Source of the DNA: Chloroflexota bacterium
Lineage (GTDB): Bacteria > Chloroflexota > UBA6077 > FW602-bin22 > JAMCYS01
Assembly (NCBI GenBank): GCA_023473795.1
Contig: JAMCYS010000146.1
Span: 1 to 49,581 of the forward strand
DNA length: 49,581 nt
Reading direction: 5' to 3'
Below the pieces are notes generated by a model, which was not told where the DNA came from, did no database searches, and saw only the letters and a list, made by a program, of their open reading frames with translations. Shown here piece by piece: positions 6,375-8,959 of this stretch. The first letter of the stretch is position 1. The number at the start of each line of letters is the position of its first letter. A program made the position numbers and the translations under genes.

Positions 6375-6404
6375 GGGCGGACTTTGCCACAGCCAAGTCC
6401 GCCC
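6375..6404 (+). terminator. Terminator-like hairpin after the DUF711 gene
   Basis: Perfect 10-bp inverted repeat: GGGCGGACTT (6375-6384) and AAGTCCGCCC (6395-6404) with a 10-base loop. There is no clear T-tract, so rho-independent termination is uncertain. It also lies just beyond the end of the minus-strand gene at 6467 and could serve both directions. Confidence 0.5.
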
Positions 6405-6466
6405 CGCGGCGTCAAGACCCTGCGATCTGCAACCGTCTTCTCTTCCCTACACAATCCAATGAATGG

Positions 6467-6682
6467 CTAACGGGCAGCCAAGACCTGAGCGCGCGCCTTC
6501 TTGGCGGCGTTCGCCCGGCCGACGAAGAAAGTGCCGAGCGCCATGCAAACGAGATGGAAGGCGTAGGCCGGCCCGAGCGCCAGCACGTCTGTAAACCCCT
6601 CCGCGTGGGAGAAGACCCCTCCCAGTATGGAGGCTATTCAGATCAAGCCTATCAACAATAAAGGATAGCCGAATATTCTGAT
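6467..6682 (-). CDS. Putative small membrane selenoprotein B (in-frame TGA at 6638-6640), unusual ATC start
   Basis: Reading through one TGA gives a 71-residue, two-helix membrane protein: N-terminus (I/M)RIFGYPLLLIGLI, then the TGA-encoded residue 15, then IASILGGVF, a loop, GPAYAFHLVCMALGTFFVG and a basic tail ending LAAR with TAG at 6467. It is a diverged paralogue of the gene just upstream, sharing 'VF', PAYAFH and VGxA. The TGA falls at the same aligned site. A 6-bp stem with loop GGGUCUU follows (6606-6624). The start is odd: AGGAG (6693-6697) is 10 bases before an ATC codon and no in-frame ATG exists, so it may use a rare ATC start or have lost its start. Positive-inside topology suggests a cytoplasmic C-terminus. 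Function unknown. The alternative is a decayed gene. Confidence 0.5.
6606..6624 (-). promoter_or_regulatory. Candidate bacterial SECIS hairpin in gene B
   Basis: In RNA sense: stem UGGGAG / CUCCCA (6 perfect pairs) with a 7-base apical loop GGGUCUU. The loop starts 20 bases after the in-frame UGA. A G in the first two loop positions and a UGA-to-loop distance of 16-37 bases are the published bacterial SECIS criteria as I recall them; both are met. The loop also contains GGUCU, as in the E. coli fdhF SECIS loop. A competing hairpin (CCUCC/GGAGG) can form slightly upstream. Confidence 0.45.
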
Positions 6683-6722
6683 GTTATTGTATCTCCTAAG
6701 CTAATTCTCTACGTTGCACCCG

Positions 6723-6908
6723 TCACGCCTGCAGGGCCTGGCCGACCAGCCAGAGGACCAGCACGGCGGTAACGCCGTGAAAGGCGTAGGCGGGGAACAG
6801 TGATAAGCTGAGACCCGAGGTCTTGCCGCGGAACACGTCCGCCATCACGTAGAAGATTCAGGCCGCCGAAACCAGCCAGACGAGGGCGGCCCCTATCCAC
6901 CAGAGCAT
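6723..6908 (-). CDS. Putative small membrane selenoprotein A (in-frame TGA at 6858-6860)
   Basis: ATG 6908 has a near-perfect Shine-Dalgarno (AAGGAGG, 6 bases upstream). Sixteen codons (MLWWIGAALVWLVSAA) lead to TGA, then 44 more sense codons to the TGA stop at 6723. Read through, it is a 61-residue protein with two membrane helices: LWWIGAALVWLVSAA-U-IFYVMADVF and LFPAYAFHGVTAVLVLWLVGQAL. The TGA residue lies inside helix 1, and a conserved PAYAFH opens helix 2. Codon use after the TGA stays coding-like. A paralogue follows 40 bases downstream with its TGA at the equivalent position. Many genes in this window end in TGA, so TGA is a normal stop in this genome. Selenocysteine insertion is my inference; a nonsense-mutated gene is the alternative. 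I do not recognise the family. Confidence 0.55.
6828..6842 (-). promoter_or_regulatory. Candidate bacterial SECIS hairpin in gene A
   Basis: In RNA sense: stem GCGGA / UCCGC (5 perfect pairs) with apical loop CGUGU. The loop's G is 22 bases after the in-frame UGA, inside the 16-37-base range of bacterial SECIS elements, and is the second loop base as the consensus requires. Its position mirrors the hairpin in gene B. Confidence 0.45.
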
Positions 6909-7251
6909 CGCGTTACCTCCTTACGATTGCTTCGCCCCCATCGTAGCGCGGTTGGACCGCCATAGATTCGGGCAACTGGCCAGAACGGCCCTGGCCTGGT
7001 GGCCGGTTCTCAGACTGTACCGGTGGCCAGGCTCGGGCAGGGGACCCTCACCCTGCCCTCTCCCAGTGGGAGAGGGAGAAGAGCGGCCTGCGGGTCGCGC
7101 GCCCACGTGGTTCAGAGCGAAGCGTCGGACCACGCCCAGGCCGACGTGGAAGGGTAACGCGCGCCGCTGCCAGATGCACGGCAGACACGTCGACTACCAG
7201 GCTAGGCTGCCGACGTGCATCCATGGCTGCGCCCGCGAGGACTTGGAGCGG
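6909..7251. other. Intergenic region between gene A and signal peptidase, with a REP-like palindrome
   Basis: No protein gene is supported. Apart from the Shine-Dalgarno of gene A (near 6915) and the palindrome at 7056-7076, no further feature is seen. The promoter of the gene A-B pair should lie between about 6920 and 7040, but no clear -35/-10 pair stands out. Confidence 0.4.
7056..7076. repeat. REP-like palindrome CCCTCTCCC/GGGAGAGGG
   Basis: Perfect 9-bp inverted repeat with a 3-base loop (AGT), embedded in CCCTCACCCTG. Elements with this core are common dispersed repeats in many GC-rich bacterial genomes. Copy number in this genome cannot be judged from the window. Confidence 0.55.
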
Positions 7252-7942: not shown

Positions 7943-8959
7943 CTAGTCGGGCGGGCGTCCGCTGCTGTCCGTTAACTCATCAACCGCCCGGCGAGCCGCT
8001 AGCAGGTTGCCGTCCGGAACCGTAAGGGGATAGGTGCAACCGGCGGCGACGATCAGTCGCCGCCCGCCTGTTTGCTCCACGGCATCGCGCACCTGGGCGA
8101 CCACATCGGACGGCGTGCCGTAGTGCAGCACGTGGTATTGCTCCACGCCCGCCGCGAGGGCTCCCGGGAAAAGACGCGCCGCCTCCGCCAGGTTCGGCCC
8201 CGAGGCGCGGTCGTGCCAGTTCACCACCTGCACGGGGTAGTCGGCCAGTTGGGCGAACATGGGGTACTTGCCGTGGAGGTGCAGCACGTTGAGCCAACCT
8301 GCCCCCGCGGCTGCCAGCACCGTCAGGTCGCCCGGGCGGGCAAACCTGTCGTGCTCCTCCGGGCTCGTAATCTCGAAGCTGGCCGCCGCGGTCGAGAGGA
8401 AGATGCCGTCGGCTCCCTCCGCCAGGGCCGCCCGCACGAAGTCGGCGGTGGTGGCCGTAATGGCCTCCAGCGCTCTCCGCAAGCGCTCCGGCTCCCGGCG
8501 CAGGTGCACGAGGTACGGCTCGTCGCCCGCCAGATAGCGGGCGATGCCGATGGGGTTGAAGACGGTCTGGATGACGGGCGTGTCGGCCGGGCGCTGCTCG
8601 ACCACCTGGCGCAGGCAGGCCAGCTGCCGGCCCAGGGCGCCCTTTCTGGGGTCGAGTGGCTCGATCCGGTCCCAGTCCTCCGGCCGCTTGATCACCCGCT
8701 CGAGGTGGTCGCGGTCGCCGATGGGCTTGCCGCGGTAGGCGTGGACCGCCCCGTAGTCGGCGACGCAGAAGGTGTGGGAAGGGGTGACTTTGAGGAAGTC
8801 CCAGTCGAAGCGCCGCTGGTAGTCCAGCGTAGCTCTGGCCAGCGACGCTGGCTCCTGGTCGTCTATCGGCCAGTGCCGCCAGAACGCCACCGGCGGCCGG
8901 TCGACCGGCTCGCCACTTATCGTGGCCCGCAATCGCTGGCGCTTGCTCATCTCCGCCAT
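7943..8959 (-). CDS. Uroporphyrinogen decarboxylase (URO-D) superfamily protein
   Basis: 338 aa from ATG 8959. The TIM-barrel URO-D fold is recognisable: KRQRLRATISGEPVDRPPVAFWRHWP, QTVFNPIGIARYLAG, EGADGIFLSTAAASFEITSPEEHDRFA, LNVLHLHGKYPMFAQLADYPVQVVNWHDRASGPNLAEAARLF, and the C-terminal LIVAAGCTYPLTVPDGNLLAARRAV. The superfamily contains heme-pathway HemE and corrinoid/methyl-transfer enzymes (MtaA/MtbA, MtgA-like). The His-x-Cys zinc pair of the methyltransferases is not obvious, although HLHG and GCTYP remain. Its true substrate is therefore open. No other heme or corrinoid genes are nearby. It lies 111 bases downstream of glgP on the same strand. Confidence 0.82.
   Translation of the reverse strand: MAEMSKRQRLRATISGEPVDRPPVAFWRHWPIDDQEPASLARATLDYQRRFDWDFLKVTPSHTFCVADYGAVHAYRGKPIGDRDHLERVIKRPEDWDRIEPLDPRKGALGRQLACLRQVVEQRPADTPVIQTVFNPIGIARYLAGDEPYLVHLRREPERLRRALEAITATTADFVRAALAEGADGIFLSTAAASFEITSPEEHDRFARPGDLTVLAAAGAGWLNVLHLHGKYPMFAQLADYPVQVVNWHDRASGPNLAEAARLFPGALAAGVEQYHVLHYGTPSDVVAQVRDAVEQTGGRRLIVAAGCTYPLTVPDGNLLAARRAVDELTDSSGRPPD

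Follow-up and report, generated by a model that had tools for sequence, protein, structure and literature searches.

The window that we analysed, a stretch of 49,581 nucleotides from a Chloroflexota bacterium, carries on its minus strand two adjacent very small genes, here called g1 and g2, with one in-frame TGA to be read through in each. The genes and the features that belong to them are as follows.

6723..6908, minus strand: g1, encoding a predicted 61-aa two-helix membrane selenoprotein with selenocysteine (Sec, U) as residue 17
6916..6922, minus strand: strong Shine-Dalgarno sequence of g1, AAGGAGG
6858..6860, minus strand: putative Sec-encoding TGA of g1 (TGA in 11/11 g1 genes)
6828..6842, minus strand: SECIS-type hairpin of g1, GCGGA[CGUGU]UCCGC, apical loop 20 nt after the UGA
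6725-6723, minus strand: ordinary TGA stop of g1
6467..6682, minus strand: g2, paralogue of g1, encoding a predicted two-helix membrane selenoprotein of ~71 aa, start codon uncertain
6693..6697, minus strand: Shine-Dalgarno-like AGGAG 5′ of g2
6638..6640, minus strand: putative Sec-encoding TGA of g2 (TGA in 11/11 g2 genes)
6606..6624, minus strand: SECIS-type hairpin of g2, UGGGAGG[GGUCU]UCUCCCA, apical loop 20 nt after the UGA

The coordinates and readings that an earlier note on this DNA had given for the two mini-genes hold. With the TGA read as U, g1, whose ATG start codon lies 3′ of the AAGGAGG motif, gives the product MLWWIGAALVWLVSAAUIFYVMADVFRGKTSGLSLSLFPAYAFHGVTAVLVLWLVGQALQA, and g2 gives IRIFGYPLLLIGLIUIASILGGVFSHAEGFTDVLALGPAYAFHLVCMALGTFFVGRANAAKKARAQVLAAR. 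The note had described strongly diverged paralogues, roughly one third identical; we measured 37% pairwise identity, and a profile-profile comparison (probability 95.5, E 1.6e-8) makes their homology clear. Its placing of the g2 start needs one correction: the window g2 has neither ATG nor GTG at the expected place, where ten of ten homologous g2 genes, each with one internal TGA, have ATG. Translation of the window g2 may begin at AUC (at 6682) or AUA, or at a TTG downstream, or the assembly may contain a wrong base. The DNA around the pair (window 6400-7000) shows a local dip in G+C, to 0.59 against 0.63-0.73 in the flanks, which may reflect horizontal acquisition or merely intergenic stretches.

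The tandem pair, always g1 then g2, was found in 11 genomes (22 genes) of one phylum, the Chloroflexota; besides the window's genome these are ten others, which span three classes and no fewer than six families. A search of 61 genomes yielded a g1 gene 68% identical to that of the window in genome G007 (contig match name: Chloroflexi bacterium FK_Sedi_B_Bin.63), with a g2 gene directly behind it and one TGA in each. Searching 400 genomes across the phylum brought up the pair in five genomes of a single genus, g49, and class-level searches added G553 together with G767, G854 and G878, the last three belonging to the third class. These homologue searches were confined to one phylum, and several of the genomes are fragmented draft assemblies. 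No relatives were found in viral contigs, and a scan of genome contigs, with search patterns that could not span the TGA, returned G007 as the sole match.

In all 22 genes the TGA stands at the same aligned site, so that what the earlier note had seen in two paralogues recurs in every known member of the family; sequencing error, which the note had named as a possible objection, is excluded because the same TGAs recur in independent genomes. No Cys, Trp or other residue occupies this site in any genome scanned, and the Trp or variable residues that would have refuted the note's reading are absent from 22/22 genes. The search for Cys homologues took in 400 genomes of the phylum, 393 of the class of G108, 396 of the class of G033 and 29 of the window's own class (overlapping sets), and its remaining weak matches were marginal and mostly inside long unrelated frames. 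Of the two kinds of homologue that the note had suggested looking for, those with TGA at the aligned residue were thus found and those with Cys were not; as no Cys homologue is known, the usual argument from Cys/Sec pairs cannot be used here. One gene departs from the pattern elsewhere: g1 of G878 (L105:1501-1683) has an additional TAG at codon 4, where all other g1 genes encode Trp, and this is either an assembly error or a sign that this g1 is a decayed copy adjoining an intact g2.

Downstream of the UGA both frames evolve as protein, as judged from the dominance of third-position differences: beyond codon 10 after the UGA, the five g49 genomes differ at codon positions 1, 2 and 3 in the numbers 57/43/153 for g1 and 111/79/202 for g2, which bears out the note's remark that the frames stay open and coding-like past the TGA. 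The U, an invariant His (H) and the residues flanking them are unchanged across the three classes.

A SECIS-type hairpin follows the TGA in every gene, its loop starting 20-21 nt after the UGA and containing GU (22/22 genes). Published limits for bacterial SECIS (bSECIS) elements are a loop of 3-9 nt, a stem of at least 4 bp, a distance of 16-37 nt from the UGA, a G in the first two loop positions and a minimum free energy at or below -7.5 kcal/mol (PMC13188914). The four constraints of shape are satisfied by 22/22 of our hairpins and the energy limit (39 nt) by 19/22, the g1 hairpins of G108, G122 and G878 reaching only -6.5 to -7.2 kcal/mol. Such a fit proves little by itself, since 41% of the 915 TGAs in the window fit the loose model (22 of them, or 2.4%, fit the strict form), and it is the conserved position that matters. 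Some g1 hairpins are weak alone (-4.6 to -8 kcal/mol), a synonymous-recoding null for single genes gave only P 0.015-0.16, and Rfam returned no SECIS family match. Single-gene folding z-scores and synonymous recoding do not decide the matter by themselves; it is comparative conservation that is decisive.

This conservation is seen at the level of codons. Where two genes encode the same amino acid in codons 6-10 after the UGA, they use the identical codon in 96% of pairs in g1 (48% elsewhere) and in 90% in g2 (43% elsewhere); the best other five-codon window reaches 67% in g1 and 52% in g2, and among the five g49 genomes codons 6-10 of g2 show no differences at all. The g2 stem exists in two types, GGGAGG..UCUCCC in the window, G007 (with minor variation) and G553, and CGCGGC..GCCGCG in the g49 genomes, such that four pairs differ on both sides and each type is fully paired, with the loop GGUC kept and the overlying amino acids changing from GG-V-FS to AA-V-AA. 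The hairpins that the note had proposed to look for after each TGA are thus present, with conservation of codons and compensatory pairs. We take the g2 loop of the window, GGUCU, to recall the SECIS loop of E. coli fdhF. The loop GU belongs to the codon of an invariant Val shared by the two paralogues, from which we infer that part of the similarity between the g1 and g2 proteins is RNA constraint.

The machinery for selenocysteine insertion, which the note had named as a check on its reading, is largely present in the host. In the window's genome (4.44 Mb in 170 contigs, completeness 96%) there are a tRNA-Sec with anticodon TCA (71.9 bits), SelB (363 bits against a cut-off of 242, confirmed by NCBIfam) and SelA (544 bits); for canonical SelD, no match passes the cut-off of 125 bits in this genome, G007 or G553 (82-95 bits). 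A short way (35 bp) upstream of selB, the window's genome has an ORF of 334 aa (L036, contig C107, 6676-7680, minus strand) that belongs to the AIR-synthase superfamily and resembles SelD, ThiL and HypE. It scores 83 bits against the selD cut-off of 125, has a homologue in G007 (L100:1246-2259) and could possibly, by inference, stand in for SelD as a non-canonical selenophosphate synthetase. Across the pair-bearing genomes, SelB passes its cut-off in 10 of 11; in the eleventh, G553 (85% complete), a full-length SelB was not found and SelA is present. All five pair-bearing g49 genomes have canonical SelD, encoded by a gene that itself has an in-frame TGA, and selB, selA and selD are clustered in G063 and G108. 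Family f21 comprises two genera, one with genomes of 1.4-1.5 Mb that lack SelB and one with genomes of 1.7-2.1 Mb that have it: SelB is found in 8/8 g49 genomes, five of which carry the pair, and none of the three g33 genomes has either.

We conclude, from comparative sequence evidence and without experimental proof, that g1 and g2 are in all likelihood a real, translated tandem selenoprotein pair, a reading to which we give a probability of roughly 0.93. Each UGA would be read as Sec by SelB and tRNA-Sec with the aid of the hairpin whose apical loop lies 20 nt downstream. UGA can be misread as Trp, and the residues around the site are hydrophobic, so that the TGAs might be imagined to be readthrough or suppressed stops that place Trp or some other amino acid in the chain; but neither TGG nor any sense codon stands at the site in 22 genes, behind every TGA there is a SECIS-type hairpin, with G25-U26 in its loop and with conserved silent sites, and the Sec machinery is at hand, all of which leaves this explanation barely credible. 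We give next to no credence to the idea that the UGA is a true stop, ending leader peptides of 15-19 aa or marking decaying pseudogenes, with the hairpins being regulatory. Hairpins could indeed have such a role and the ORFs without readthrough are too short to be called, but the frame after the UGA remains open and evolves as protein in both genes, and U, H and their flanking residues do not vary across three classes. Nor would decay leave 22 genes with one and the same stop, an argument that the earlier note had made from two genes. Its preference for recoding as selenocysteine is strongly supported by the machinery, the 22/22 TGAs and the hairpins, with the presence of selenium itself remaining unproven.

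The two-helix membrane form that the note had read from the sequences agrees with AlphaFold2 models, in which g1 (pLDDT 95.6, pTM 0.73) is a hairpin of helices at residues 2-26 and 35-60 and g2 (pLDDT 83.6) one of helices at residues 3-29 and 34-71. In each product Sec would sit midway along helix 1, and the invariant His would follow after 26-28 residues, in helix 2; the spacing is 27 in all g1 proteins and 26-28 in all g2 proteins (11/11 genomes). In g1, Sec17 and His44 lie equally far from the turn (17+44 = 26+35) and so, as predicted from the modelled helix boundaries, should face each other mid-membrane. The net charge of g1 is +2 to +4 in the loop and about 0 at the ends, and that of g2 is +1 to +3 at the N-terminus, 0 to +5 at the C-terminus and -2 to +1 in the loop, an opposite bias that is consistent in 11/11 genomes. 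By the positive-inside rule these charges suggest that g1 and g2 insert in opposite orientations and, by extension, that they form an antiparallel four-helix heterodimer, an inference that we regard as evenly balanced. Such a heterodimer would gather two Sec and two His residues at the mid-plane of the bilayer.

No described family accounts for the pair. The models of NCBIfam release 20 and Pfam gave nothing near a cut-off for g1 or g2, a PDB sequence search with g1 and g2 profiles gave nothing credible, and Foldseek found no match in the PDB at E <= 0.001; phmmer matches of one g2 to designed SAKe proteins were discarded as many weak repeats of 4-5 bits. Nothing resembling the pair appears in a 2026 catalogue of 119 selenoprotein families (PMC13188914), and our literature search met no description of such a family. 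As in bacterial selenoproteins such as FdhA, there is an in-frame UGA, a hairpin of bSECIS form in the accepted distance range and SelA, SelB and tRNA-Sec; unlike them, the pair has no UxxC or CxxU motif and no Cys form that we could find, places Sec within a transmembrane helix of a protein of 60-80 aa and always comes as two tandem paralogues. The selenoprotein operons grdA-grdB, SAO and Tso (PMC13188914) likewise hold adjacent selenoprotein genes that are expected to cooperate, but in our pair the neighbours are paralogous to each other and the unit has two genes only. Known membrane selenoproteins include those of the YeeE/YedE thiosulfate transporter family and a mercuric transport selenoprotein (PMC13188914, Table 1), which have GUxSG or C/SxxU motifs and domain models of their own and show no detectable similarity to the pair.

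What the pair does can be proposed only tentatively. It may be a membrane selenol/diselenide redox site, or it may be a carrier or channel for a soft ligand (a thiophilic metal, metalloid or chalcogenide), and we put each of these inferences somewhat below even odds. The fuller proposal, of an obligate two-Sec antiparallel heterodimer forming a Sec-only intramembrane site that serves redox chemistry or the transport of a soft ligand and has no known counterpart with cysteine, is plausible and likewise falls short of an even chance. Gene neighbours are not conserved and so give no functional clue: in the window the pair adjoins signal peptidase I and an ORF for a conserved hypothetical protein, several g49 genomes have coaBC beside it, and its neighbours are arginine biosynthesis genes in G878 and a tRNA in G553. 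Also in the window (7943-8959, minus strand) is a gene for an MtaA/CmuA-like methyltransferase, below equivalog cut-offs, which possibly serves corrinoid methyl transfer.

We doubt, without dismissing it, that the pair is a miniature antiparallel transporter after the manner of SMR or Fluc proteins, with Sec (and His) replacing the mid-membrane binding residue. The likeness lies in tandem paralogues of inferred opposite topology, with the opposite charge bias seen in 11/11 genomes; two g49 g2 proteins weakly match SMR helices 1-2 (E 5e-4 and 5e-3), and the U-H distance of 26-28 is similar to that between E14 and Y40 in EmrE. But the best SMR score is 20.8 bits against a curated cut-off of 200, SMR is absent from the Pfam scan matches, the PDB offers neither a matching sequence nor a fold with a significant score, there are two helices per subunit rather than four, and SMR and Fluc proteins are without selenium. 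Membership of the EmrE-like SMR family is not met on score or on helix number.

In one g49 genome, G063 (L066:1-4361), the pair comes directly after three RdhA genes, two of full length and one incomplete. We infer that G063 and G108 are Dehalogenimonas, as the joint presence of selB, selA and selD in both, and of reductive dehalogenases in G063, matches what is described for that genus (PMC4918011). Most Dehalogenimonas rdhA genes are without rdhB (PMC4918011), and small hydrophobic proteins encoded beside rdhA might serve as unconventional membrane anchors or redox partners of reductive dehalogenases; we nevertheless find this role very unlikely for the pair. Among the inspected loci only G063 shows the adjacency, the other sampled loci having unrelated neighbours; not all genomes of the genus carry the pair; and RdhB, at ~90 aa and 2-3 helices, is larger, has no Sec and is not tandem-paired with a paralogue. 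An RdhB-like anchor as a general role was rejected, conserved rdhA adjacency not being met. With no family or structure match, and with SMR and RdhB memberships not met, we class the pair as a new Sec-only type of selenoprotein that matches none of the families so far described.

Nearly every selenoprotein known so far has a cysteine counterpart, and Sec/Cys pairing was the route to many of them (PMC13188914), so that a tiny, Sec-only membrane pair would be missed by current methods and by gene callers. If g49 is indeed Dehalogenimonas, a cultivable organohalide-respiring genus, the pair would be directly testable there. If our reading is true, selenocysteine is used inside the lipid bilayer by a self-contained unit of two genes, in which the constraints of the SECIS element visibly shape the protein, through the invariant Val encoded by the loop GU.
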